Shown here: positions 6,575 to 28,507 of the stretch, piece by piece
Layout of the letters: each line of letters begins with the position of its first letter
Position numbering within the stretch: the first letter of the stretch is position 1
Assembly: GCA_029259935.1 (NCBI GenBank)
Contig: JAJDEH010000161.1
Location: 1 to 29,051, forward strand
Length of the DNA stretch: 29,051 nucleotides
DNA from: Planctomycetota bacterium
Lineage (GTDB): Bacteria; Planctomycetota; Planctomycetia; Pirellulales; Pirellulaceae
Reading direction: 5' to 3'
Translations under genes and position numbers: made by a program
Notes under the pieces: generated by a model
Seen by the model: the letters and a program-made list of their open reading frames with translations, nothing else
Databases searched by the model: none
What the model was told of the DNA's origin: nothing

Positions 6575-7018
6575 GTGGTTGCCACGAAAACTTATATGGC
6601 CAAGACGGGCGAAGTCAACCAGAAATGGTGGCTCGCGGACGCTGACGGCAAGATCGTCGGCCGTTTGGCCAGTGATATTGCCGTGATCCTCATGGGGAAA
6701 CATCGGCCGACCTACACGCCGCACGTCGATACGGGCGACTTCGTCATTGTCGTCAATGTCGAGAAAATCGTGTTCACGGGCCAGAAGTGGGATCAGAAAC
6801 AGTACACCCGATATTCCGGCTACCCCGGGCTCAAGTCGGAAAACGCCGCCCGACGCCGAGAGCGCCAGCCAGAGCGAATCCTGCACGAGGCCGTGCGCCG
6901 CATGCTTCCCAAGAACAAACTTGGCAGCAAGATGCTGTCGAAATTGAAGGTCTATGCCGGACCCGATCATCCGCACCAGTCGCAGCAGCCAGAACCGAAA
7001 GATTTAGGAACAAAATAA
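6575..7018 (+). CDS. rplM: 50S ribosomal protein L13
   Basis: The 147-residue protein aligns with bacterial L13 along its length: WWLADADGKIVGRLAS, GKHRPTYTPHVDTGDFVIVVN, RRMLPKNKLGSKMLSKLKVYAG and a QQPEP end. The start is the GTG at 6575, preceded by GAGAGGAA at about 9 bases. Beginning there preserves the TKTYMAK segment that aligns with the N-terminus of other L13 proteins, which a start at the ATG 6596 would lose. It lies three bases from rpsI, the widely conserved L13-S9 operon. L13 is an early assembly protein of the large subunit. Confidence 0.97.
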   Translation: MVATKTYMAKTGEVNQKWWLADADGKIVGRLASDIAVILMGKHRPTYTPHVDTGDFVIVVNVEKIVFTGQKWDQKQYTRYSGYPGLKSENAARRRERQPERILHEAVRRMLPKNKLGSKMLSKLKVYAGPDHPHQSQQPEPKDLGTK

Positions 7019-7021
7019 GCC

Positions 7022-7435
7022 ATGGTCGCCACCAAACAGGACAAATTGAATAAAGACTTTCTTGGAACGGGCCGGCGCAAGTCGTCTGTCGCTCGAGTGC
7101 GAGTTCGGCCCGGCAGCGGCAAAGTCACCATCAACAAGCGCTCGATGGATGAGTATTTTCCCAATTTGCAAGATCGTCGGCAGATCATCGACACGTTGTC
7201 GGAAGTTGGCAAGTCGGACGATGTCGATGTCGTCATCCGGGTCTCCGGGGGCGGCAGTACGGGCCAGGCCGGCGCGTGCAAGATGGGCATTGCCCGCGCG
7301 CTCGTCAGCCTCGACACCGAACTGTTCCAGCCGCTTCGAGATGGCGGGTTTCTGACGCGTGACTCCCGCATGAAAGAACGCAAGAAGTACGGGCTGCACG
7401 GCGCTCGACGGGGCACTCAGTTCTCGAAACGTTAG
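7022..7435 (+). CDS. rpsI: 30S ribosomal protein S9
   Basis: The 137-residue protein has S9 hallmarks: GTGRRKSSVARVRVRPGSGK, the GGGSTGQAGACKMGIARAL core, LTRDSRMKERKKYG and the C-terminal GARRGTQFSKR. The basic SKR tail reaches the ribosomal P-site tRNA in known structures. It is the second gene of the rplM-rpsI operon and is followed by a strong intrinsic terminator. Confidence 0.98.
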   Translation: MVATKQDKLNKDFLGTGRRKSSVARVRVRPGSGKVTINKRSMDEYFPNLQDRRQIIDTLSEVGKSDDVDVVIRVSGGGSTGQAGACKMGIARALVSLDTELFQPLRDGGFLTRDSRMKERKKYGLHGARRGTQFSKR

Positions 7436-7473
7436 CCAACCGCCAGAACGAACTTTGGCAATCCAACTAATAG

Positions 7474-7508
7474 GCTCGCGACGAGTGCCACTTGTCGCGA
7501 GCTTTTTT
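7474..7508 (+). terminator. Intrinsic terminator of the rplM-rpsI operon
   Basis: A perfect 9-bp stem, GCTCGCGAC (7474-7482) with GTCGCGAGC (7494-7502), encloses an 11-base loop and is followed at once by six T (7503-7508). It lies 38 bp after the rpsI stop and only 26 bp before the ATG of the symporter gene. Confidence 0.93.
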
Positions 7509-7534
7509 CGTAGCCCGAGCGACCGGAATACCTG

Positions 7535-9280
7535 ATGGCCAAACGCAAGAACAAGAACGCGAACCGTTCTCCCGGCAAGCCGCCGGAAAGTCACTCGGGC
7601 AGCGGAAGCCATCTCACTTGGTGGATTGTCGGCGCTATCGTTGTGGCCATTGGTCTGGCGCTGGTTTGGCCCAGTCTGGCAATCCAGTTCGAAGTGGGAG
7701 GTGAAATCTTTCTGCGCGTCTTGCAAATGGTGGTGGTTCCGTTGGTCATGGCCAGTGTGATGAGCGGCATTTTGGGACTGGGCGACGTTCGCAAATTGGG
7801 CCGGCCCGGCGCGTATGCCATCGCCTATTATTTCTGTACGACGGTCATGGCCGTCGTCACGGGGTTGGTCGTTGTCAATCTTGTCAGCCCTGGCACGAAC
7901 ATTGAAAAAGCCCTGGTGGAAGATGCGCGCAAAGAAGGAGAAGAGACGGTTGCGCACGCCGGGGGCGGCAGCAAGGGCACCAAGATCCAATGGCACAACG
8001 TCACCGGCGATCGCGCTCAAACAGCCGCCACCAGCAAGAATGCCTCGGTACCCGAGAACGGAATCTGGAATGTACGGATCGTCATTGATCAGGTCGGCGA
8101 CGCAACGAAGCCAGCCACGGGCAGGGTTACCTGGAGCGCTGACGGCAACGAATTCCAGCCAGTAATAAAACGTGATTTTCTAACCAAACAGGAACTAAAA
8201 GAAGAAAAAGCAGCCGACAAGAAAGAGAACGACAAGGAAGTCGGCATCTTCAAGGCCGGTAAGCAAGCCGACACCTATCGCACGACGTCTCCGTTGCCGA
8301 TTCCACCGAGCGCCCGGTATGTGCAAGTCACGTTGGAACCGCAGCAGGGCGGCAAAGAGAGCATCATCGAGGCGTATGTCGTTCCTGGCCCTCCGTCGAT
8401 CGCCGACATCCTGAAAAACTTGGTGCTGATGTTGTTTACCAAGAATCTGCTCGGATCGATGGTGGAAATGAATCTGTTGCCGCTGATTGCCTTCAGCATC
8501 GTCTTCGCGTCGCTGTTAACGACGCTGGGCAAGGAATCAGAAACGATCAAGTCTTTGGTCGTCAGCATCAACGACGCGCTGATGAACTTCATCTTACTGC
8601 TGATGAAGCTTGCACCGCTGGGAATTTTCTGCCTCGTCGCCGCGCGATTCGGAAAAGCTCAGCAAGACGGCGAGTTTCTCGACCTGATCAGAGTTCAGGC
8701 CTGGTACACATCCAGTGTGTTGATCGGTCTGGCGTTCCACGCCGCACTCACCTTGCCGCTGATTCTTTGGTTTTGGACAGGGCGGAATCCGTTTCAGTTC
8801 ATCGGGCAGATGTCGCAAGCGATTCTAACGGCGTTTTCCACGGCCAGTTCGACCGCGACTTTGCCTGTTTCGATGGAATGTGCCGAAAAGCGGGCCGGCG
8901 TGTCACGACGTTCGACGGAATTTGTATTGCCGCTCGGTGCCACCGTCAACATGGACGGCACCGCGTTATACGAAGCGGCGGCGGCCATCTTCATCGCCCA
9001 AGCCTACGCGGTGGTCGATCCGACCTTTGTCCTCACGCTAGACAAGCAGATCATCATCGCCTTGACCGCGACCTTGGCGGCCGTCGGAGCGGCCGGCATC
9101 CCGGAAGCGGGCTTATTCACCATGATGATCGTGCTAAACGCCGTCGGCCTGCCCTTGGAGCTGATCGGACTGATCCTACCCATCGACTGGCTGCTCGACC
9201 GCTTCCGCACGGCCGTCAACGCCTTTGGCGATTCCATCGGCGCCGCAGTCGTCGACCAAGTCATGCCGACGGAATCGTGA
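7535..9280 (+). CDS. Dicarboxylate/amino acid:cation symporter (glutamate transporter family) with large 3-4 loop insert
   Basis: The 581-residue protein belongs to the SDF/DAACS family (GltP, DctA, GltPh), whose members have ~420-450 residues. Family motifs are present: RVLQMVVVPLV, the first re-entrant loop STASSTATLPVSM (436-447), LPLGATVNMDGTALY (466-479), the second re-entrant loop AAGIPEAGLF, and DRFRTAVNAFGD in the last helix. D555, R558 and N562 align with GltPh D394, R397 and N401; arginine at that site fits an acidic substrate such as aspartate, glutamate or a dicarboxylate. Residues ~120-286 form an insert between TM3 and TM4 not found in GltPh. It includes VTWSADGNEFQPV and ARYVQVTLEP, reminiscent of a discoidin-type beta-sandwich (inference), plus a Lys/Glu-rich helix. 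It probably imports substrate with Na+ or H+. Confidence 0.93.
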   Translation: MAKRKNKNANRSPGKPPESHSGSGSHLTWWIVGAIVVAIGLALVWPSLAIQFEVGGEIFLRVLQMVVVPLVMASVMSGILGLGDVRKLGRPGAYAIAYYFCTTVMAVVTGLVVVNLVSPGTNIEKALVEDARKEGEETVAHAGGGSKGTKIQWHNVTGDRAQTAATSKNASVPENGIWNVRIVIDQVGDATKPATGRVTWSADGNEFQPVIKRDFLTKQELKEEKAADKKENDKEVGIFKAGKQADTYRTTSPLPIPPSARYVQVTLEPQQGGKESIIEAYVVPGPPSIADILKNLVLMLFTKNLLGSMVEMNLLPLIAFSIVFASLLTTLGKESETIKSLVVSINDALMNFILLLMKLAPLGIFCLVAARFGKAQQDGEFLDLIRVQAWYTSSVLIGLAFHAALTLPLILWFWTGRNPFQFIGQMSQAILTAFSTASSTATLPVSMECAEKRAGVSRRSTEFVLPLGATVNMDGTALYEAAAAIFIAQAYAVVDPTFVLTLDKQIIIALTATLAAVGAAGIPEAGLFTMMIVLNAVGLPLELIGLILPIDWLLDRFRTAVNAFGDSIGAAVVDQVMPTES

Positions 9281-9390
9281 CATGTCGGCAAAACCTGATT
9301 AATTGTGGTGCGGGCGTCCAACCACGTCTTCCGAGTACACCCTCTAAAACGACGGGCCATTGCTCCCACAATCCATCAATTCACGTTCTC

Positions 9391-9398
9391 GCTACAAT
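9391..9398 (+). promoter_or_regulatory. Putative extended -10 element, GCTACAAT
   Basis: GCTACAAT lies 78 bases before the chosen start of the ceramidase-like gene. The same octamer occurs before the SGNH hydrolase gene (15087-15094), and GCTAGAAT before the di-haem oxidoreductase gene (21633-21640). I see no good -35 hexamer at 16-18 bp, so this is tentative. Confidence 0.4.
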
Positions 9399-9419
9399 GG
9401 ACGCGTACATTCGCCCCCA

Positions 9420-9446
9420 AACTCCCCCTCGCCACAAGGGGAAGAA
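9420..9446. repeat. Short G/C hairpin repeat, copy 2 (diverged)
   Basis: The core CCCCT (9425-9429) pairs with AGGGG (9437-9441) and is followed by GAAC (9443-9446), as in the copies at 1953 and 15063. The loop is longer and the arms shorter than in those copies. It lies in the leader of the ceramidase-like gene, which argues against extending that gene to an upstream in-frame ATG at 9360. Confidence 0.55.
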
Positions 9447-9476
9447 CTTCAGGCGCGCATTCCGAAAGCACTCAAC

Positions 9477-10895
9477 ATGACGATATTCGTTTCAATTCGT
9501 TGGGCAGTTTGTTTGCTGGCCATATTGTTTACGGCCAACCGTGCCTTCGCGGATCTCAAGGCCGGGGCCGCGAGAGTTGATATTACGCCCCAGCCAGGTG
9601 TGTCACTGGACGGGCCGATTAGCAAGAACGGGCCGGTCACGCGGGTGCACGATCGGCTGCATGCTCGCGCGCTGGTGCTGGATGACGGATCGACTCGGCT
9701 GGCGATCGTCATTTGCGATGCCTGCATGATTGGTCGCGATGTCTTCGATGCCGCCAAGAAGACAGTTCACGAATCGACGGGGCTGCCGACAAGCAACATA
9801 TTGATTGCCGCGACCCATACGCACGCTGCGCCACGACTGGCGCACATCGGCCGCGAGCCGATGGACGACGAGTATCATAAACTGGTCGCCAAACGAGTTG
9901 CCGAAGCGATCCTCCAAGCGGAGAAAAATCTGCGTCCGGCGCGGATTGGATATGCCTCATTCGACCGCCCTGACTTGATCGCTTGTCGCCGCTTTCTCTG
10001 TAAGGCGGGAAGCGTGGGGCCCAATCCGTTCGGCGAGGCGGGCGAACGCATCAAGTCGGTGGCCGGCAAGTCGTCGGCCGTTATCGAGCCAGCGGGACCG
10101 GTCGATCCTCAGTTTTCAATTCTGTCGGTCCAACACGACGACGGCCAGCCGCTGTGCGTACTCGGAAATTTCAGCGTGCATTATTGCGGCGGCTATCAGC
10201 GGGGCGTGGTGAGCGCTGATTATTTTGGTTACTTCTCGCAAGCCATGGAATCCGCGCTGGGCGGCAGCGGCGATCATCCGCCCGTGGTCGGCATCATGTC
10301 CAACGGAACCAGCGGCAACACCGGTTCTTTCCAAAGGGCCGGCAAGAAGTTCGCGCCGTTTGAAGGATTGCAGTTCTATGGCCGCTTGTTGGCCGAAGAA
10401 ACTGCCAAGGCGATGAAAGATATTCCGTACCGCTCGGACGTCACGCTAAAGATGGTGGAAACGGAGCTTGAGTTAGATGTTCGCCGGCCCGACGACCAGC
10501 GGCTGGCGTGGGCGCGGCGCGTACTGGAGAATCCAACGGAAAAACAACCGCATCGCTGGGCCAAGATCTACGCCCAAGAGGCCCGGCATTTGGAAAGCTA
10601 TCCGGCGACTCGAAAGATCAAACTGCAAGCGATTCGGATCGGCGATGTTGCAATTGCCGGCTGCCCTTGCGAAGTGTTCGCCGAAACCGGCCTGGCCGTC
10701 AAGCGGGATAGCACCGCCAAAAAAACGTTCACGATCGAACTGGCCAACGGTTACGCCGGCTATTTGCCTCCTCGAAAGCAACATGAACTGGGCGGCTACG
10801 AGACTTGGCCCGCTCGGTCTAGCTTTTTGGAGGTGGGTGCCGAAGAGAAGATTCGTACGACGCTGCTGGGACTGATCGAACGGGTTACCCGCTGA
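9477..10895 (+). CDS. Exported neutral/alkaline ceramidase-like protein
   Basis: The 472-residue protein has a signal peptide (VCLLAILFTANRAFA, cut near residue 25) and a neutral-ceramidase N-terminal domain. It starts with AGAARVDITPQPG, contains the zinc-site THTH (H114, H116) and a second histidine in GNFSVHYCGG (H235), then VSADYFGYF. The NGTSGNTGSF segment carries S279, which I align with the nucleophile region of the Pseudomonas enzyme. It lacks the C-terminal immunoglobulin-like domain, so it is shorter than true ceramidases (~650 residues). Planctomycetes often encode several such proteins, and the real substrate may be another amide or ester. I chose the ATG at 9477 because it begins the signal peptide; the in-frame 9360 start would translate a repeat. 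Convincing as a family member, uncertain in substrate. Confidence 0.88.
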   Translation: MTIFVSIRWAVCLLAILFTANRAFADLKAGAARVDITPQPGVSLDGPISKNGPVTRVHDRLHARALVLDDGSTRLAIVICDACMIGRDVFDAAKKTVHESTGLPTSNILIAATHTHAAPRLAHIGREPMDDEYHKLVAKRVAEAILQAEKNLRPARIGYASFDRPDLIACRRFLCKAGSVGPNPFGEAGERIKSVAGKSSAVIEPAGPVDPQFSILSVQHDDGQPLCVLGNFSVHYCGGYQRGVVSADYFGYFSQAMESALGGSGDHPPVVGIMSNGTSGNTGSFQRAGKKFAPFEGLQFYGRLLAEETAKAMKDIPYRSDVTLKMVETELELDVRRPDDQRLAWARRVLENPTEKQPHRWAKIYAQEARHLESYPATRKIKLQAIRIGDVAIAGCPCEVFAETGLAVKRDSTAKKTFTIELANGYAGYLPPRKQHELGGYETWPARSSFLEVGAEEKIRTTLLGLIERVTR

Positions 10896-11000: not shown

Positions 11001-11038
11001 GAATCCAAAATTCCTTGGATTCCGTGAGGTTTGCTTCC

Positions 11039-14000
11039 ATGTCGATATTGAGAAGAGTTCTTGGCTTTGTTTCACATCCCGTAGGACGGAGATCCAAGCA
11101 AAGCCTAGTTTCGGCGCTGGTCGTCTTGTTGGCCGTCGCCCAACTGGTTGCTGCCGACGACGGTTCGTTCCCGGTCGACGGAATTCTGCCCAAGCGCGAA
11201 ACGGGGGCCACGCGATTCCTCAAGAAGCATCCCGACCACGATGGCCGTGGCGTGATCGTCGCCATCTTTGATACCGGCGTGGACCCCGGCGCCGCCGGCT
11301 TGCAAGTAACGAGCGAGGGGAAGCCCAAAGTGGTTGATCTCGTGGACGGCTCCGGCAGTGGCGACGTGAATACCTCAACCGTTCGCAAGCTGGACGGCGA
11401 CAAGATCACGGGACTTACCGGCCGCGATCTGCAAATCCCCAAGGCATGGCAGCAGAAGAACAAGTCGGGCAAGTACCACGTGGGCATCAAGCGAGCCTAT
11501 GAGCTGTATCCCTCGCGGCTCGTACCGCGTCTGAAGAGAAAGCGGCGCGAATCGTGGGACGCTGACCAGCGGGCGCTGGTAACCAAGTTGCAGCGCGAGA
11601 TCGTTGCCTTCAATGAAGCCAACCCTAAGCCAAAGGCAGACAAGAAAAAGAGCGGCAAGGATTTGGAAAAGCGGCTCGAACTGTTGCGAGCCGCGCAGAA
11701 AAGTTACGACGATCCAGGGCCCATCCATGACTGTGTCGTATTTCACGACGGACAAGACTGGCGGGCCGCCATCGATACCGATGAAGACGGCGACTTGGCC
11801 GAAGAAAAGCTGTTGACGAATTATCGTAAGGAGCGCGAGTTCGCCACGTTCGGTGATGAAGATTTGTTGAACTTCGCGGTTAACATCTATGACGATGGCA
11901 AGCTGCTTTCCATCGTGACTGATTGCGGCGCGCACGGAACTCACGTGGCCGGTATCGTGGCCGGTTGCTATCCCGATGCTCCCGAATTGAATGGGCTGGC
12001 TCCCGGCGCGCAGATTGTTTCCGTCAAGATCGGTGATCGACGTTTGGGATCCAGTTCCACGGGCACCGGTGAACTGCGCGGGTTGGCCACCGTTTTGCGA
12101 AACAAATGTGATCTGATCAACATGAGCTACGGCGGCGCGACGAGCGATCCCAACGCGGGGCGGATCATTGAACGTTATTCGGAAATCGTCAACAAACACG
12201 GCGTGATCTTCGTGGTCAGCGCCGGCAATAATGGCCCGGCGCTGTCGACCGTCGGTTCGCCGGGCGGCACGACGTCGGCGATTATTGGAGTTGGCGCGTA
12301 TGTCTCGCCGGCGATGATGCAGGCCGAATACTCACTGCGCGAAAAGCTCCCCGAGATTACCTACACCTGGTCGTCGCGCGGACCGACTTTTGACGGCGAT
12401 GTCGGCGTGAACATCAGCGCGCCCGGCGGCGCGATCGCTCCTGTTCCCAACTGGGTCCTGCAGCCCAACATGCTGATGAACGGGACCTCGATGTCTTCGC
12501 CCAATGCGTGTGGGGCGATCGCCTTGATCGTTTCCGGTCTCAAGACCGAGGAGATTCCCTATTCGCCGCATTCCGTACGCCGGGCCGTGGAAAACAGCGC
12601 CCGGCCGCTGCGCAACAGCGACCAGTTTGCCCATGGCCGGGGCCTAATCCAGGTCGACGCCGCATTTGAATTGCACAAAAGCGGGGCGAAGCCAGGCCAG
12701 GAGCAGGTGCGGTTCGAAGTCGACCTGCCCCAGATGAACAACCATCGTGGCGTCTATTTAAGGGAACCTCAAGAGACAGCCCGTGTTTTGGAAACGCAGG
12801 TCCGCGTGCGGCCGCTGTGGCACGACGACGCCGACAACCGCGCCAAGGTGGCCTTTCAAAAACGCATCAAAATCGACGCGACCGCCGACTGGGTCGAAGC
12901 GCCCGGCCATCTGCTACTGGTTCATGGCGGGCGCAGTTTTGAAATCCGCGTCGATCCCACCGAGTTGGACCCGGGAGTTCATTTCGCCGAAGTCGTGGGC
13001 ATTGACGAAGCGTCGCCCGATTGCGGGTCGGTGTTTCGCTTGCCGGTGACGGTGATCATTCCGGAGTACATCGACAACGAGGCCAAAGCCTGGCGCAAGA
13101 AATTGAGCCTGCGGCCTGGAAAACTGCAGCGAAACTTCATCGCCGTCCCGCGCGATGCGACATGGGCCGATTTGACGATCCGTTCCGGCGACCAGGAAGC
13201 CGTCCAGCGACTGGTGGTCCACGCCGTCCAGCAACTGCCCAAAGAGTCGTTTCGGTCAAATGAGTTCAAGCAATACATTTCCACGACCCCCAATGATTAC
13301 GAGGTCCGCAGCTTCGCCGTAACGGGAGGCCGCACGCTGGAATTATGCCTGGGCCAGTATTGGTCGAGCCTGGGGAATGGCAAGTACGAATTTGAATTGG
13401 AATTCCACGGCGTTCGGCCTTCGGACCCCAACTTGGTGTTGGACGGCGGTCAGATTTCCGGCCGGCTTGACGTTTCCGCGCCGTTTCGTGAAGAGTCGGT
13501 CTCTCCCAGCGCCTCACTGACAACGCTGCGGCAAACCTATCGACCAACCAAAGCAACGATCCGCGCGCTTTCGCCCGATCGCGACGCCTTGCCCGACCAT
13601 CGGCAATTCCATGAACTGATTTTGGAATACGCCATCGAACTAGATAGCGAGATTCAAATCAATCCGCGAACCGCGTTGGAAACACACGACGAATCTTGGC
13701 TGTCCTACAGTTCGCGTCTGTGGCAGATCTTTGACGCCCAAAAACAATTGAAAGGCAATGGCGGCGCGAAGCTGCCCAAGGGTAAGTATGTGCTGCGCTG
13801 GCATGTGCGGCACGACAGCCTGGCGGCTCTGGAAAAACTCAAGTCGATGCCGATGCTGTTAGACTGCAAGTTGAGCAAGCCGATCTCGCTGGATGCCTAT
13901 TCCGACCCCGACGACCTGACGGCGCGAGGATCGAAGTTTGGTACACAAACGCTGCAGTGCGGCGACCGGCAAACGATGTATTTTGCCGTCCCCACTTCGT

Positions 14001-14893
14001 TTCCCAAAGCCGCCCGCGAAGGCGACCTGCTGCGGGGGACGGTGACGTTCGGCAAGACGAACGAGAGTCTGGCCGGCGCGGGCAAGCGGCCTTCCGGTTT
14101 CTCGATCAGCGTGAAGGTTCCTCCCAAGAAGAAGGAAACGCCGCCGGAACCCGCGTCGAAACCCGCCAAGAAGAAAACACTGGCCGAGAAGGTTCGCGAA
14201 ACCCAGCTCGCGCATTTGGCGACGCTTCGAAAGGCCAAAGACCGCAAGGCCTTTGACCGTCTGAGCAAGCGGCTGTTGGAGAAAAAGCCCGGCGACAGCA
14301 AAGTGCTGATCGAACAGCTCAACATGCTGGACCAAGAGGACGGACGCAAACAACGACTGCCCGAAATCGTCACACAGTGCGACCGGCTCATTGCCTTGAT
14401 CGATCAGGGCAAACTCGCCGCTCACTATGGCGTGAACATCAACCCGGACGACGAAGAGGCGGCCAAGACTCGCAAGGAGATGGACAAACAAAAAGCGATC
14501 CTCGTCGACGCGCTATATCGTAAGGGCCGCGCATTAGCCTACATGGACTTGCCGGAGAAATACGGCAAGCCTGGCGAGCCGCCCGCGAAACAGTTTCCGG
14601 ACAAACGCGAGGACCGCGACAAGCTGTTTGAGGACAACTTCGCCCAGTTGCAGAAATGGGCCGACGTCACCGAGTCGAAATATGTACTCCTGCACATTCG
14701 ACGCGAACGGCGGCACGGTCGATTTGGACTCGCCCTGGAGTCGGTGAATAAGGAAATCAAGTCGCAACCGCCCAAAAAGTTACTCTTCAAAAAGCGTGGC
14801 GACATCTACGACGAACTGGGCTGGAAAGGCTGGCGCGATTACGAGCGCAAATGGATGCTGCTTCGCTTTCCGGCCGACTATCCGCCGTTTTAA
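11039..14893 (+). CDS. Tripeptidyl-peptidase II-like subtilisin protease, exported
   Basis: The 1,284-residue S8-family serine protease has the catalytic set D78 (AIFDTGVDPGA), H299 (CGAHGTHVAGI), N397 (VSAGNNGPA) and S484 (NGTSMSSPNACG). The ~220-residue gap between Asp and His and the giant length are hallmarks of tripeptidyl peptidase II. That enzyme removes tripeptides from free N-termini and in eukaryotes forms huge cytosolic spindles. The ~800 residues after the catalytic domain include beta-rich modules and a Lys/Pro/Ala-rich linker (PKKKETPPEPASKPAKKK) before a helical C-terminus. The start is the ATG at 11039, with GAGG about 9 bases upstream; the in-frame TTG at 11015 is less likely. 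The N-terminus has a basic region, then VSALVVLLAVAQLVAA, indicating export. Neighbouring exported hydrolases fit peptide scavenging. Confidence 0.92.
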   Translation: MSILRRVLGFVSHPVGRRSKQSLVSALVVLLAVAQLVAADDGSFPVDGILPKRETGATRFLKKHPDHDGRGVIVAIFDTGVDPGAAGLQVTSEGKPKVVDLVDGSGSGDVNTSTVRKLDGDKITGLTGRDLQIPKAWQQKNKSGKYHVGIKRAYELYPSRLVPRLKRKRRESWDADQRALVTKLQREIVAFNEANPKPKADKKKSGKDLEKRLELLRAAQKSYDDPGPIHDCVVFHDGQDWRAAIDTDEDGDLAEEKLLTNYRKEREFATFGDEDLLNFAVNIYDDGKLLSIVTDCGAHGTHVAGIVAGCYPDAPELNGLAPGAQIVSVKIGDRRLGSSSTGTGELRGLATVLRNKCDLINMSYGGATSDPNAGRIIERYSEIVNKHGVIFVVSAGNNGPALSTVGSPGGTTSAIIGVGAYVSPAMMQAEYSLREKLPEITYTWSSRGPTFDGDVGVNISAPGGAIAPVPNWVLQPNMLMNGTSMSSPNACGAIALIVSGLKTEEIPYSPHSVRRAVENSARPLRNSDQFAHGRGLIQVDAAFELHKSGAKPGQEQVRFEVDLPQMNNHRGVYLREPQETARVLETQVRVRPLWHDDADNRAKVAFQKRIKIDATADWVEAPGHLLLVHGGRSFEIRVDPTELDPGVHFAEVVGIDEASPDCGSVFRLPVTVIIPEYIDNEAKAWRKKLSLRPGKLQRNFIAVPRDATWADLTIRSGDQEAVQRLVVHAVQQLPKESFRSNEFKQYISTTPNDYEVRSFAVTGGRTLELCLGQYWSSLGNGKYEFELEFHGVRPSDPNLVLDGGQISGRLDVSAPFREESVSPSASLTTLRQTYRPTKATIRALSPDRDALPDHRQFHELILEYAIELDSEIQINPRTALETHDESWLSYSSRLWQIFDAQKQLKGNGGAKLPKGKYVLRWHVRHDSLAALEKLKSMPMLLDCKLSKPISLDAYSDPDDLTARGSKFGTQTLQCGDRQTMYFAVPTSFPKAAREGDLLRGTVTFGKTNESLAGAGKRPSGFSISVKVPPKKKETPPEPASKPAKKKTLAEKVRETQLAHLATLRKAKDRKAFDRLSKRLLEKKPGDSKVLIEQLNMLDQEDGRKQRLPEIVTQCDRLIALIDQGKLAAHYGVNINPDDEEAAKTRKEMDKQKAILVDALYRKGRALAYMDLPEKYGKPGEPPAKQFPDKREDRDKLFEDNFAQLQKWADVTESKYVLLHIRRERRHGRFGLALESVNKEIKSQPPKKLLFKKRGDIYDELGWKGWRDYERKWMLLRFPADYPPF

Positions 14894-21696: not shown

Positions 21697-23007
21697 ATGG
21701 CAAAAGAAATCACTCAGAAGTACTGGAAATGGATCGCTGGTACGGTTCTCGGCGTGGGCATCATGTGGTTCTTCGCGGCTCGATTCGTGGATGCCTGGAG
21801 CCGCCGTCCGACCGAGGAACGATTGTCGCTGGGGCGTCAGATTTTTGAACACGAGTGGCAGCGGGACGACCCACTGGCCGGTGAAGGCGACGGACTGGGA
21901 CCCGTCTTCAATGAAAAATCATGCGTGGCCTGCCATTTTCAAGGCGGCGTCGGTGGTGGAGGAACAAACCGATTTAACGTCTTGGCCTACGAGGCAATGC
22001 CTGCTGGCGACCGGACGAGTCCCTCCGGCGGAGTTGTTCATGCGTTCGCTATTGACGAAAAATTTCAAGAGAGCCGCGATATCATCAGCCGACGATATCC
22101 CATTCAGCCCGGCGGCACCAAGGTTGTCAACGGATGCGAGCAACGGACACCCTCGTTCAACCCACTTGATTTTGAAGAGATCAACACGCCGCCCTTGTTT
22201 GGATTGGGATTGATCGATGACATCTCGGAACTGTCGATCGGAATGAATGGTGCCGGGCGCCGGCTGGGGAAAATGTCCAAGGAACTAGAAGGTGATTTTG
22301 GACAAGGTACGGTGGGTCGCGCACGAGTGCTTCCGGATGGCCGACTGGGGCGATTTGGCTGGAAAGGTCAGTTTGCGAGCGTGGAAGAATTCGTGGCCAC
22401 GGCGTGCGCCGTCGAGTTGGGTCTTTCGAATCCCATGCGTACTCAAGATGTCCCTCAACAGAATGTGCCCGACAGCCAGGCCAAGCTGGACATCGACCGC
22501 CGCCAATTGAGAGCCCTAGTCTGTTTCGTGGAAAATCTGCCACGGCCGGTCGAAATTCTGCCCAGCGATGCCGAGCAGCGCGCACTGGCCGTTCACGGCA
22601 AAGAGGTCTTCGCGGCCGTTGGCTGCGCCGACTGCCACACGCCCGATCTGGGAGGAGTAGATGGCGTCTATAGCGATTTTCGCCTGTACGACGTCGACGA
22701 ATCCAAAGACCCCGCCTATCGCGAGTTGCCCGACGACCTGGTACTCGCCGCCAGCCACCCGCTGCCTAGCGAGTGGAAGACTCCGCCGCTGTGGGGAGTG
22801 GCCGATTCCGCGCCCTACTTTCACGACGGACAATCAAGAACGCTGCGAGACGCGATCTACCGTCACGGGCACGACGCCTTGGCGTCCCGCAAGAAATTCG
22901 AGAAGCTGGGCGACGACGAGCAAAACGCGGTGATCGCGTTCCTGGAGACCTTGCGAGCGCCTCCCGGACTTGCACCCGCGGGCAGCCACGACGACGTCGA
23001 TCATTAA
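21697..23007 (+). CDS. Membrane-anchored di-haem oxidoreductase (DHOR / cytochrome c peroxidase-like)
   Basis: The 436-residue protein has an N-terminal anchor or uncleaved signal (~11-28) and two c-type haem sites, CVACH (76-80) and CADCH (310-314). The context is that of the DHOR family (pfam06537): GEGDGLGPVFNEKSCVACH, NTPPLFGLGLIDDIS, WKTPPLWGVADSAPYFHDG and RDAIYRHG. Members are thought to be periplasmic electron-transfer or peroxidase-like enzymes, and many are uncharacterised. GGAG lies upstream of the ATG at 21697. It is convergent with the nitrilase-family gene, the two stops being 7 bp apart with no room for a terminator between them. Confidence 0.92.
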   Translation: MAKEITQKYWKWIAGTVLGVGIMWFFAARFVDAWSRRPTEERLSLGRQIFEHEWQRDDPLAGEGDGLGPVFNEKSCVACHFQGGVGGGGTNRFNVLAYEAMPAGDRTSPSGGVVHAFAIDEKFQESRDIISRRYPIQPGGTKVVNGCEQRTPSFNPLDFEEINTPPLFGLGLIDDISELSIGMNGAGRRLGKMSKELEGDFGQGTVGRARVLPDGRLGRFGWKGQFASVEEFVATACAVELGLSNPMRTQDVPQQNVPDSQAKLDIDRRQLRALVCFVENLPRPVEILPSDAEQRALAVHGKEVFAAVGCADCHTPDLGGVDGVYSDFRLYDVDESKDPAYRELPDDLVLAASHPLPSEWKTPPLWGVADSAPYFHDGQSRTLRDAIYRHGHDALASRKKFEKLGDDEQNAVIAFLETLRAPPGLAPAGSHDDVDH

Positions 23008-24595: not shown

Positions 24596-25660
24596 ATGGA
24601 CTTTCCCTGCCCGAATTGCCGAATCGAGCGTGAGTCTCTCGAAGCCCCATGCCTCCATTGCGGTTGGTCGCCCGTTCCCGTGTCGGGAGCCGCGGGAGCC
24701 ACGAGTGACACGCGGCAGCCCGCTCCGCCAACCGCACAGCGTAGTGCTCCCTCGTCGTCGCCCAGTCTCTGGCCTCTCTTGGCGATCGTATTCGCGATTA
24801 TTTTCTGCGGCGTGGCGTTCGCCGCCGTTTGGTTCGGTGCGAGATGGATTAGTACGGCCATGAATAAGACGTTGTCCGCCGAATCACGCGATCTCGCGGA
24901 CGAATTCTTTGAACAGGGTCAGCAATATTACGACAACGGCGAGAGTTCAGCGGACTTCCACAATGCTGTCAGGAATCTTACCAGGGCGATCGAATTGGAT
25001 TCATCGTTTGCCGAAGCCTATAACGTACGGGCGTTGACTTATCACGAGTTAGGTGATCGGGAAGCCGCGATTCGCGATTACAATCAAGCAATTCGGTTGG
25101 AACCGGACGCCTACGAATACTACAACAATCGCGGTGTGACTTGGCACGACATGGGCGACTATGCGAAAGCGATCGATGACTTTAGCGAGTCGATTCGGCT
25201 TGAAAGCAGAGTACCGCATTCGTATTGCCTGCGGGCCCTCAGCGCCTATGCAAGCGAAGACTTTAAATCGGCCAAACAGGATTTGGAAAAAGCGGTCACG
25301 CTAGACCCGTTCGCCGACTCGCTTGACTACGACACGGCGGACTACAGCTATGATGTTGCGCAGCCGAAAAACCATTTGGCGAGGTTCCTAGCAACGTGCC
25401 CCGATCCTGAGTTTCGTGACGGTCCGCGCGCCGTCGAATTGGCTTCCGAAGCGTGCCAGGACGCGGGGTTCGATTTTGAACCCTTCATCGACACGTTGGC
25501 GGCGGCGCATGCCGAAAACGAAAACTTTGCGGAAGCCATCAAGTGGCAGACCAAGGCGATTGAGGAAGCATCCCTGGAAGATGTCGCCGAAATGAACGAG
25601 CGCCTGAAACTCTACAAACAAGACAAGCCCTACCGCGCCAGCAAGCTTCGCCCTTACTAG
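24596..25660 (+). CDS. Zinc-ribbon, single-span membrane protein with TPR repeats
   Basis: The 354-residue protein begins with a zinc-ribbon (C5-x2-C8 and C19-x2-C22, in FPCPNC and CLHCGW), then a Pro/Ser/Ala linker and one membrane helix (~58-82). After that come tetratricopeptide repeats: three clear ones at ~115-245 (AYNVRALTYHELGDREAAIRD, YYNNRGVTWHDMGDYAKAID, YCLRALSAYASEDFKSAKQD) and a second block at ~262-340 with FLATCPDPEFRDGPRAVELA and FIDTLAAAHAENENFAEAIK. TPRs mediate protein contacts, so it is probably a scaffold. With the ribbon inside the cell, the repeats would be outside. The start is the ATG at 24596 with GAGG 8 bases upstream. Confidence 0.88.
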   Translation: MDFPCPNCRIERESLEAPCLHCGWSPVPVSGAAGATSDTRQPAPPTAQRSAPSSSPSLWPLLAIVFAIIFCGVAFAAVWFGARWISTAMNKTLSAESRDLADEFFEQGQQYYDNGESSADFHNAVRNLTRAIELDSSFAEAYNVRALTYHELGDREAAIRDYNQAIRLEPDAYEYYNNRGVTWHDMGDYAKAIDDFSESIRLESRVPHSYCLRALSAYASEDFKSAKQDLEKAVTLDPFADSLDYDTADYSYDVAQPKNHLARFLATCPDPEFRDGPRAVELASEACQDAGFDFEPFIDTLAAAHAENENFAEAIKWQTKAIEEASLEDVAEMNERLKLYKQDKPYRASKLRPY

Positions 25661-25765: not shown

Positions 25766-25781
25766 TTCTAGTTTTCTAGAA
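25766..25781. promoter_or_regulatory. BlaI-type operator 1 (upstream of -35)
   Basis: TTCTAG-TTTT-CTAGAA is a dyad with perfect 6-bp arms and the same half-site as operator 2. It ends 8 bp before the -35 hexamer of the repressor gene. Confidence 0.8.
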
Positions 25782-25789
25782 AAACATGC

Positions 25790-25818
25790 TTGACGGCTAT
25801 CTCAAGGACCTGTAAATT
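25790..25818 (+). promoter_or_regulatory. Promoter of the blaI-like/M56 operon
   Basis: The -35 TTGACG (25790-25795), a 17-bp spacer and the -10 TAAATT (25813-25818) fit a housekeeping sigma factor. The -10 overlaps operator 2, and operator 1 lies just upstream of the -35. Confidence 0.75.
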
Positions 25819-25832
25819 CTAGTTAACTAGAA
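25817..25832. promoter_or_regulatory. BlaI-type operator 2 (overlaps -10)
   Basis: TTCTAGTTAACTAGAA is a perfect 16-bp palindrome that overlaps the last two bases of the -10 and covers the transcription start. Repressor bound here would block RNA polymerase. Its centre is 51 bp from that of operator 1, about five helical turns, so both dyads face the same side of the DNA. Confidence 0.85.
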
Positions 25833-25862: not shown

Positions 25863-26261
25863 ATGGCGCGCCCCCGATCCGAATACCCGACCGGTTTGGA
25901 GCTTCAGATTCTGCAGATCCTGTGGGCCGAGTCGCCGCTGCCGGTGCGCGACATTCGCCTGGCCTTGGCGGGACAAGAGCGGGATATCGCGCATACGTCG
26001 GTGATCACGACGCTGAACACGATGGTCGACAAACGCTATCTCAAACGGACCAAGCAAGGCAAGGCGTTTCTGTTTTCTCCGCGAGTTTCAGAAGACGAAG
26101 TCTCTCAGGGCATGATGTCCGATGTCGTGAACCGTGTCTTCGGCGGCTCGGCGACCGCAGCCGTTTTGAGCCTATTCGACTCTTCTCAACTCGACGCGGA
26201 TGAACTCCAGGAACTGCGTCGACAGATCAATCGCAAGGCGCGAGAGCAATCGAAGGATTAG
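25863..26261 (+). CDS. BlaI/MecI/CopY-family transcriptional repressor
   Basis: The 132-residue protein has the typical length. Its winged helix spans ~8-75: GLELQILQILWAESPLPVRDI, the recognition helix AHTSVITTLNTMVDKRYL and the wing TKQGKAFLFSP. A C-terminal dimerisation/cleavage region (~76-130) contains SQGMMSDVVNRVFGGSATAAVLSLF, matching the region around the BlaI cleavage site (N-x-x-F-x-G). It should bind the two TTCTAG dyads upstream as a dimer and repress itself and the protease gene downstream. In the classical bla/mec system the repressor is inactivated by proteolysis when the membrane partner senses its ligand. GGGAG lies about 12 bases before the ATG at 25863. Confidence 0.95.
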   Translation: MARPRSEYPTGLELQILQILWAESPLPVRDIRLALAGQERDIAHTSVITTLNTMVDKRYLKRTKQGKAFLFSPRVSEDEVSQGMMSDVVNRVFGGSATAAVLSLFDSSQLDADELQELRRQINRKAREQSKD

Positions 26262-26267
26262 TAAACA

Positions 26268-26318
26268 ATGCGTCAATCTTCATTCAACAGTCACCATTTT
26301 CTAGGCTTGCAACTATGA
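26268..26318 (+). CDS. Possible 16-codon coupling ORF between repressor and protease
   Basis: The ATG at 26268 opens MRQSSFNSHHFLGLQL and its TGA (26316-26318) overlaps the ATG of the M56 gene as ATGA. AAGGA lies about 11 bases upstream, whereas the M56 start itself has no good ribosome site. This suggests translational coupling rather than a functional peptide. Chance cannot be excluded for so short an ORF. Confidence 0.35.
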   Translation: MRQSSFNSHHFLGLQL

Positions 26319-28507
26319 CTCCGCTGCCTATTTTTGACTCGCAGTTTTGTTCGCTTTTGACGTTGACTCTGCTGCACTTTTTGTGGCAAGGAGTGGCGAT
26401 CGGATTCGTGGCGTTGTTGGGCAATTTTCTGTTCCGCCACGGCTCAGCGCATGTGCGATGTGCGGGAAATATGTTGGCGTTAGCTGCCATGTTGACCTGC
26501 CTGCCGATCACATTTATTGTCTTGGCAACCAAGCACGATGAGGTCACGGTGGTGACCGGCCTGACGGAGCAGCCAGAGACGATCACGCCTTGGGTAGCTC
26601 CTGTCCCGAGATTGCCCGCCGGCGAAAACGTCGACGGGAAGCCAATGGAAATCGCCGCTGGCCCCATCAGCGTAGCGGATCCCTCGGAAACTGAGGAGCT
26701 TCGACCGCCACGCGAACAGCAGCAGGTCGCGGTCGCCGGCACGGCGCTACCTCGCTGGGCTCCTTGGGCAACGCTGGCTTATGGCCTGGGATTAATGATA
26801 ATGTTCGCGCGATTGGCGCGGGCTCATTGCTTCGGTGCACGATTCCGCCAGGACGCGACGCCGCTTGCCGAAAATGGCTTGCTCTCGATCCTTGGCCGCG
26901 AAGCGCGGAAGATCGGGCTAAGGGCCGTTCCCCAAGTGGCTTGGAGTCGTCGCGTTTGCGTCCCGGTCGTGGTGGGCATTTTTAACCCCATGATCTTGTT
27001 GCCGGGATCGATGATGACGGGCCTGTCGGTGGATCAGGTTCAGGCGTTGCTAAGCCACGAATTGGCCCACATTCGCCGTCACGATCACTGGCTAAACCTG
27101 TTGCAGCGATGCACCGAGGCGGTGCTGTTTTTTCATCCTGCCGTTTGGTATGTCAGCCGACGAGTCAGCATCGAACGCGAACATTGTTGCGACGACTTGG
27201 TGTTGGCCGCCGGATGGACTCGGCTTAACTATGCGGATGCATTGCTGAAAATGGCCGAGCTGTGCGTGTCGCCGAGCAGTCCCGCGCTGCCCGCGGCCCT
27301 GGCGGTTTCAGGCGGAAACCCCACACTGTTCAAGCAACGGGTGCTGCGAGTCCTGGCGGCTGACGCGAACCCTAAACTGCGCATCACACCCGTGGGACTG
27401 ATCGTGGCCACTGCCTTGCTCGCCGGACTGTTGTCGACTCCTTTCTTGCTTCAGAGTAGGGCCACGCCTCCTGACACTCCGTCGCTGATCCAAAGCGATC
27501 CGCCCGTTGGCACACCTGCCAGCGACAAAGGCACGAAAGCGACCACAGCCGATGTTCAGGTCGGACAGCGAGAAGATGAAGAGGTCCGCCGCGCAATCGA
27601 GCGGGGCGTCGAATTCCTTCAGCGGCGCCAGGGCGGTGACGGATTGTGGCCGTATCCCTCGAAGTCCATGAGCGGCGGTGCCACGGCACTTTGCACGCAC
27701 GCGTTGCTGGCTTGCGGAACGGACGAATCGAACGAGGCCGTCAAGCTTGGCTTAAAGCAGGTCCGCGACATGGAACTCTCGCACACTTACTCCGTCGCGC
27801 TGCGGATCTTGGTACTCAGTTCTGTCGACGAAATGGGTGACCGTCCCTTGGTGGAGAAGAGCCTTCGCTGGATGGCCGAAACACAAACCGCGGAGGGTAA
27901 CGCGGCCGGTGGGTGGTCGTATGGTCCCAAGCGATCGCGGCGGGCCGACGGTTCGAATACTCGGTTCGCCGTCTGGGCGCTCGACGAAGCCCGAAGAAAG
28001 GGATTCACTGTACCGGAAGAACTGTGGCGCAACGTGGGCGACTACTGGCTGAGCAGCCAGCGGGCGGACGGCTCGTGGGGCTATCAAGTTTCGAGCATGG
28101 GAACGCGCACCATGACCTTGTCGGGCATCTTCTGTCTGCTGGCCGTGCGAGAGGCCGTGGCTGACGAAGCACTGCACGGCCAGATTGACAAAGCGGTCGC
28201 TCGCGCCTGGACCTGGCACGACGATCGGTTCCAAGCCAAGGATCACGCCGAGGCGAAAACGTGGCGCTACTACGGACTGCAGGTTCTGGCCTCGGCTCAC
28301 GTCAAGAAGTCGGGTTTGTCCGGCAAGCGGTTCGAGGCCGCGGAGCCAATTCGCCTTCTGCTCGACCAGCAATCCATGAGCGGCTCGTGGCAGGAGGGAA
28401 GTGCCGGGACGCCGGAGTTGAAGACCAGCTTGGCTCTGCTGGCGTTGATTGACTTCTTGAAGGCAAACGGGTCATCGCCACCGAAACCAGCGAACGAAGG
28501 GCCGTGA
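26315..28507 (+). CDS. BlaR1-like M56 membrane metalloprotease fused to a QW-repeat alpha/alpha-toroid domain
   Basis: The 730-residue protein has an N-terminal M56 module with membrane spans at ~13-40, 49-71, 149-168 and 358-380. Its gluzincin site is HELAH (248-252) with the third ligand in EREHCCDD (E289), followed by the FHPAVWYVSRR-type region of BlaR1. After the last span comes a Pro/Thr linker (~381-420), then ~300 residues resembling a squalene-cyclase/prenyltransferase toroid. QxxxGxW motifs start at Q439, Q582 and Q686, with a looser one at Q524, amid repeated helical pairs. No DxDD catalytic motif is seen. By analogy with BlaR1, the C-terminal part should be outside the membrane and act as sensor, and the protease should cleave or trigger cleavage of the repressor encoded upstream. 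Ligand unknown. Confidence 0.9.
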   Translation: MTPLPIFDSQFCSLLTLTLLHFLWQGVAIGFVALLGNFLFRHGSAHVRCAGNMLALAAMLTCLPITFIVLATKHDEVTVVTGLTEQPETITPWVAPVPRLPAGENVDGKPMEIAAGPISVADPSETEELRPPREQQQVAVAGTALPRWAPWATLAYGLGLMIMFARLARAHCFGARFRQDATPLAENGLLSILGREARKIGLRAVPQVAWSRRVCVPVVVGIFNPMILLPGSMMTGLSVDQVQALLSHELAHIRRHDHWLNLLQRCTEAVLFFHPAVWYVSRRVSIEREHCCDDLVLAAGWTRLNYADALLKMAELCVSPSSPALPAALAVSGGNPTLFKQRVLRVLAADANPKLRITPVGLIVATALLAGLLSTPFLLQSRATPPDTPSLIQSDPPVGTPASDKGTKATTADVQVGQREDEEVRRAIERGVEFLQRRQGGDGLWPYPSKSMSGGATALCTHALLACGTDESNEAVKLGLKQVRDMELSHTYSVALRILVLSSVDEMGDRPLVEKSLRWMAETQTAEGNAAGGWSYGPKRSRRADGSNTRFAVWALDEARRKGFTVPEELWRNVGDYWLSSQRADGSWGYQVSSMGTRTMTLSGIFCLLAVREAVADEALHGQIDKAVARAWTWHDDRFQAKDHAEAKTWRYYGLQVLASAHVKKSGLSGKRFEAAEPIRLLLDQQSMSGSWQEGSAGTPELKTSLALLALIDFLKANGSSPPKPANEGP

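Follow-up and report, generated by a model that had tools for sequence, protein, structure and literature searches.

The BlaR1/BlaI pair is known as a beta-lactam switch, and the sensor of BlaR1 is itself related to class D beta-lactamases, a case of an enzyme-derived sensor. In BlaR1, the extracellular loop between transmembrane helices 2 and 3 (TM2-TM3 loop, EL1) competes in the sensor pocket and is displaced by beta-lactams, and the protease releases the repressor by cleavage (PMC9834060, excerpted text). Planctomycete extracytoplasmic function (ECF) sigma factors with WD40 domains (PMC8567305, excerpted text) provide a second point of reference. Here we describe a locus of a Planctomycetota bacterium (Pirellulaceae; GenBank assembly GCA_029259935.1, contig JAJDEH010000161.1), analysed as one window of 29,051 nucleotides, in which the same chassis appears to carry an unrelated sensor. 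The gene in question, at 26315..28507 (+; 730 amino acids (aa), ATG at 26315, stop codon ending at 28507), was characterised by Pfam and NCBIfam scans and an AlphaFold2 model and encodes an M56 peptidase fused to a toroid domain. We consider it fairly probable that this protein and the neighbouring repressor form a proteolytic switch of the BlaR1/BlaI type whose sensor was exchanged for a recruited pseudo-cyclase toroid.

Architecture of the fusion protein and its repressor unit

The M56 peptidase domain spans residues 154-316 (26774..27262, +; PF05569, E 1.9e-29). A motif scan and alignment located the zinc-binding motif HELAH at residues 248-252 (27056..27070, +), and the third zinc ligand motif, E289-x-x-x-D293 (27179..27193, +), follows 37 residues past H252, leaving the gluzincin motif HExxH...ExxxD (H248-H252, E289, D293) intact. 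The spacing equals that between H205 and E242 in S. aureus BlaR1, and R342, which hardly varies across 33 aligned sequences, lies 53 residues beyond E289 compared to 52 for E242-R294 in BlaR1 (PMC9834060). In a fold comparison, the full-length model matched BlaR1 cryo-EM structures (best E 1.2e-4). These sequence features identify the product as a membrane zinc protease of family M56, of the BlaR1 type.

The final membrane helix ahead of the toroid, TM4, was placed at residues 360-378 (27392..27448, +) by hydropathy and model. The predicted extracellular TM2-TM3 loop (residues 82-143; 26558..26743, +), mostly modelled with a predicted local distance difference test score (pLDDT) below 50, is the counterpart of EL1 in BlaR1 (PMC9834060). 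At the place of this loop, another M56 protein (locus L133, 3193-8097, -) has about 290 additional residues between two matched M56 parts. Charge counts in the window protein (5 basic and 10 acidic residues in loop 78-147; 22 basic and 14 acidic in the protease loop) agree with a predicted N-out, C-out topology, which would put the C-terminal part outside the cell. The extracellular location assumed by an earlier sequence-only reading of the locus agrees with hydropathy, model and charges, that is, with prediction only.

Beyond TM4, residues ~411-720 (27545..28474, +) were modelled by AlphaFold2 with twelve long helices, both in the whole protein and in the lone domain. The isolated model reached a pLDDT of 92 and a predicted template-modelling score (pTM) of 0.92 and matched (alpha/alpha)6 toroids in Foldseek and VIA-align. 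The nearest solved folds were the sugar-acting AprG and squalene-hopene cyclases (SHC), relatives whose substrates include sugars as well as isoprenoids. Three exact QxxxGxW motifs were found by motif scan: QGGDGLW (residues 439-445; 27629..27649, +), QRADGSW (582-588; 28058..28078, +) and QSMSGSW (686-692; 28370..28390, +). When residues 417-730 were shuffled 10,000 times, three such motifs never arose and two arose in nine shuffles. The motif is not constant in the toroid family, as two relatives (P0014, P0015) lack any exact copy.

At the profile level, the squalene-cyclase family PF13243 matched residues 492-590 below its cut-off (22.6 versus 26.1 bits), TIGR01787 matched at 2.3e-6, far under its curated cut-off, and the prenyltransferase model PF00432 gave no match to the fusion protein in the Pfam scan. 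The AlphaFold2 models contain a single toroid and no second one; cyclase chains of single-toroid size (<370 residues) exist, e.g., 8pak and MstE. A viral fold library returned no match at E 0.001 or better. The DxDD string is absent from all 730 residues, which disfavours an active class II terpene cyclase; it occurs somewhere in 6 of 34 other scanned proteins, in P0012 within the sigma part. A thioester toroid of the complement/alpha-2-macroglobulin type was ruled out for the window protein, as it has no CGEQ. Among the relatives, P0008 has CGEQ at position 234, and PF07678 labels were found on P0027, P0153, P0217, P0225 and P0226.

Directly upstream of the fusion gene lies a BlaI/MecI/CopY-type repressor gene (132 aa; 25863..26261, +; PF03965, E 9.9e-29). 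It is preceded by two operator-like sites: TTCTAGTTTTCTAGAA at 25766..25781, with two 6-bp half-sites and a 4-nt spacer, and TTCTAGTTAACTAGAA at 25817..25832, a perfect 16-bp palindrome. These near-identical palindromes are the sole matches in the window within 3 mismatches, against 0.01 expected. Between them is a putative sigma70-like promoter, TTGACG-17-TAAATT (25790..25818, +), a consensus match only (1 found versus a shuffle mean of 0.1), with the end of its -10 hexamer overlapped by the second site. The dual arrangement is repeated in a relative (L042), with the sites 52 nt apart compared to 51 nt here. A TPR protein with an N-terminal CxxC...CxxC zinc-ribbon-like start is encoded some 200 bp ahead of blaI (24596-25660, +).

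The sequence-only reading had proposed a BlaR1-like protease with an alpha/alpha toroid in the place of the BlaR1 sensor, at least three exact QxxxGxW motifs, no visible DxDD, and a repressor with dual operators completing one signalling unit. Protease, toroid fold, motif count and absence of DxDD were all borne out; the toroid stands behind the last predicted membrane helix with no penicillin-binding domain match, and the presence of the repressor gene and of two operator-like palindromes flanking the promoter also supports its reading as one unit.

Conserved residues and the cyclase DxDD site

The DxDD motif of SHC carries the catalytic acid, and D303 mutants named in the titles of SHC entries in the PDB fit this role. 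In the toroid family, the signature is GGWSY...DGSN (residues 532-548; 27908..27958, +), and the best-covering register aligns its DGSN with DxDD. Among 168 full toroids, D545, Y536 and Y590 are invariant (168 of 168 each), whatever the register. W534 (167), M600 (165), N548 and W588 (162 each) and T601 (161) are near-invariant, and position 547 is S in 149, A in 18 and V in one, never D.

A profile built from eight toroids found SHC in the PDB with an E-value of 9.4e-19 (hmmsearch), and one of its several alignments set GGWSY...DGSNT against GGF...DVDDT of SHC; the same signature was also aligned to the matching region of drimenyl-diphosphate synthase. Comparison by hhalign with five SHC proteins of planctomycete genomes gave a probability of 97.9. 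Two hhalign registers were near-equal, scoring 100.1 over 155 columns and 99.4 over 253, of which the longer sets DGSN on DVDD. In the PDB profile search, other SHC registers outscored the one with DGSN on DxDD (20.7 and 17.9 versus 10.9 bits), and the end-to-end ranges of the structural fold matches are also compatible with another register. The equivalence of DxDD and DxSN is ambiguous because these alternative registers score alike or higher; the invariant Asp may mark the cyclase DxDD position, here DxSN, as the best-covering but unproven reading of the alignments.

Recurrence of the fusion and genomic context

A first homolog search listed 35 proteins, counting the window protein itself, whose toroids either stand alone or are joined to M56, DUF4159, WD40 or sigma70 domains. 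P0012 and its relatives are sigma70 factors with a toroid mostly behind a hydrophobic segment. When 271 fetched proteins were classed by custom profiles, M56 plus toroid was found in 35 (window protein included; the toroid of P0068 is partial), and a hydrophobic segment separates the zinc motif from the toroid in all 33 that could be tested. Sigma70 plus toroid occurred in 56 of the 271, with such a segment between the two parts in 54. By Pfam label, the best 120 of 1448 M56 relatives included 25 with a toroid, 13 with WD40-type and 10 with redoxin modules, and further C-terminal modules among these 120 were PQQ, HEAT, secretin-type and others. Several accessions counted here as WD40-type are presumed to belong there. 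The M56-toroid fusion recurs, and the toroid is one among the many modules that M56 relatives carry at their C-termini. Two relatives differ in their C-terminal parts: P0036, an M56-toroid protein, ends in an LTXXQ domain (under its cut-off), and the M56 protein P0065 matches both PF13243 and, at 27.5 bits against a cut-off of 22, pectic acid lyase PF09492.

In the loci examined, a BlaI-type gene is a regular neighbour of M56 genes. We examined 32 locus pieces, which were best-scoring matches and not a random draw; 30 contained M56, and blaI adjoined it in 29 of these, for L067 as seen on a longer piece. The exception, L070, ends at a contig end. Counting palindromes with half-sites of at least 6 bp and a 4-nt spacer within 230 nt around the blaI frame start, 22 of 29 loci (28 such loci plus the window; some from closely related genomes) had one, compared to 2.06 expected, and 7 had at least two, compared to 0.1 expected. 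Read by eye, half-sites were of the CTAA/CTAG/CTAT or CGAA type in 15 loci, seven had other palindromes and seven had none. The sequence-only reading had suggested looking for other M56-toroid fusions next to blaI genes, and such loci were found (see below). Literature searches turned up no paper on M56-toroid or sigma-toroid fusions, and so no sign that the fusion had already been characterised with another function.

Individual genomes gave similar pictures. A metagenome-assembled genome (MAG) of Planctomyces sp. SH-PL62 (L002/L069) encodes blaI followed by an M56-toroid open reading frame (ORF) of up to 2714 aa, and in a second Planctomyces MAG (L070) a comparable fusion is truncated where the contig stops. 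Two Gemmataceae MAGs carry sigma70-toroid genes (L006, 5008-6903; L007, 4837-6900). Toroid matches numbered 14-28 per genome in 8 genomes, some genes being counted as several pieces. DUF4159-toroid ORFs numbered 55 across the fetched loci, some of which overlap; at L129, such a gene (6667-9204) is divergent from a MoxR-type ATPase gene (9465-10481). In a tree of 83 toroids, the M56 label needs 5 changes, 4 of them forced by starred branches, hinting that M56 proteins may have recruited the toroid repeatedly. P0006, which belongs to the fusion from genome G002 as a fragment, bears the label 'other' in this tree, and short-contig fragments distort the sigma count, so we do not claim a number of origins.

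Elsewhere in the window, the genes for a transhydrogenase, tripeptidyl peptidase II, symporters and other proteins point to no regulatory target, and an Rfam scan of the window gave no matches. Products of these genes include a neutral ceramidase-related protein (9360-10895, +; PF04734), a bacterial tripeptidyl peptidase II, a subtilase with TPPII domains (11015-14893, +), and a di-haem oxidoreductase (DHOR, PF06537) with cytochrome c-type matches (21697-23007, +).

A proposed sensor-swapped proteolytic switch and its alternatives

Gene order, palindromes, protease motif, the toroid fold past TM4 and recurrence of the module are seen in sequence or model, and we propose the following mechanism on this basis. 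The BlaI-type repressor would bind both palindromes around the promoter, keeping down its own operon and probably also unlinked targets. The fusion protein would reside in the cytoplasmic membrane with the zinc protease in the cytoplasm and the toroid outside. By analogy with BlaR1, the toroid could bind a ligand, perhaps displacing the ~60-residue disordered TM2-TM3 loop, and the signal would travel via TM4 to the protease, which would then cleave the repressor. A cyclase-like enzyme fold devoid of the DxDD acid may have been recruited as a sensor, a parallel to the beta-lactamase-related sensor of BlaR1. A sensory role, as opposed to binding or catalysis only, is likely because of the position of the toroid and its fusion to two unrelated regulator types.

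Several observations weigh against this interpretation. TM1, TM2 and TM4 pass the hydropathy threshold but TM3 does not; it appears solely as helix 144-180 of the AlphaFold2 model. The N-termini of the six inner helices were tested for a conserved ring, but as a set these positions are not clearly more conserved than the domain average (permutation p 0.059), and we therefore name single residues alone. Among 392 sampled genomes of the phylum, the fusion was recovered from G002 and weakly from G011 only, although this is a lower bound because only the best 2 or 6 candidates were scored per genome and the M56 gene is cut off in many pieces. In both genomes blaI adjoins the M56 gene; the G011 protein has a weak, broken toroid match (E 3.8e-10) and a Pfam cyclase match under the cut-off. 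Lastly, toroids also occur in proteins with no regulator part (P0003, DUF4159 proteins), so the domain may have a more general role in binding or catalysis.

One alternative is that the toroid docks another envelope protein and senses assembly or stress, not a small molecule. WD40-type and HEAT repeats are protein-binding types and are among the other modules of M56 relatives, and in the single neighbourhood scanned a MoxR-type ATPase gene lies beside a DUF4159-toroid gene. However, the top-conserved residues, judged by their place in the sequence, fall in short motifs (GGWxY, DxSN, WxY, MT) and are not spread over a surface, and no partner is known, so that we regard docking as not very likely. 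The toroid might instead be a working tethered enzyme, e.g., on a sugar or envelope glycan, with signalling following substrate or product. A toroid fold in common says nothing about function, the domain yielded no known catalytic motif, and fusion to two unrelated kinds of regulator favours sensing, making this reading unlikely.

The sequence-only reading had suggested a hydrophobic ligand such as an isoprenoid or hopanoid. The clear homology to SHC in both profile comparisons speaks for such a receptor, as do SHC genes above the curated cut-off in 7 of 8 toroid-carrying genomes. Against it, the DxDD acid is gone in all 168 domains in the best-covering register, and no cyclase or isoprenoid gene was found among the 23 window ORFs scanned (cut ORF 2-616 and overlapping ORFs excluded). 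Since among single-domain folds the sugar-acting AprG comes closest, and the most conserved positions include Asp, Asn, Ser/Ala and Thr beside Trp and Tyr, an isoprenoid or hopanoid receptor is not favoured and seems quite doubtful. An ordinary beta-lactam or cell-wall sensor is rejected as highly improbable: the M56 plus BlaI organisation and an NCBIfam blaR1 match at residues 158-364 would fit it, but that match reached 72.7 bits against a cut-off of 400, and no penicillin-binding domain was found in Pfam up to E 1.

Returning to the sensor-swapped switch, a broader version is conceivable, at somewhat less than even chance: the toroid may be a portable pseudo-enzyme receptor of Planctomycetota, in which W534, Y536, D545, N548, Y590 and M600-T601, presumed to line a pocket, read one class of envelope or extracellular compound. 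It would serve as sensor both on BlaR1-type proteases and, placed after a membrane helix, on sigma factors. Its DUF4159 and standalone forms would carry that compound or act on it. As relatives of the chassis are fused to many different modules, they point to a general signalling type. If the broader version is true, planctomycete M56-BlaI pairs would be a large undescribed family in which one protease and one repressor serve interchangeable sensors. The window offers a compact testable unit: a gene pair, a single promoter, two operator-like sites and a foldable domain in which a few residues are invariant.

Compared with BlaR1/MecR1-BlaI/MecI of staphylococci and Bacillus licheniformis, the locus shares the M56 gluzincin motif with its spacing of 37 residues, the order of the predicted membrane helices, a neighbouring BlaI-type repressor and upstream palindromes. 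It differs in having a toroid where the beta-lactam-binding C-terminal sensor sits, and in palindrome half-sites of the CTAG type with a 4-nt spacer. With the class II terpene cyclases SHC and drimenyl-diphosphate synthase the fusion protein has in common the toroid fold, QW motifs and detectable sequence homology; unlike them, it has only one toroid, lacks DxDD (the best-covering register reads DxSN) and includes the toroid in a membrane regulator. The transaldolase AprG of Streptoalloteichus tenebrarius is the closest single-domain fold (Foldseek E 1.9e-7, TM-score 0.67, 17% identity), but by its entry titles it is a sugar-processing enzyme and not a regulator, and the likeness described here is one of fold. 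Finally, planctomycete ECF sigma-WD40 proteins are likewise regulators with extra modules, and the toroid too is found on sigma factors; the window protein is a protease and not a sigma factor, and toroids go unmentioned in the excerpted text of the study describing those proteins (PMC8567305).
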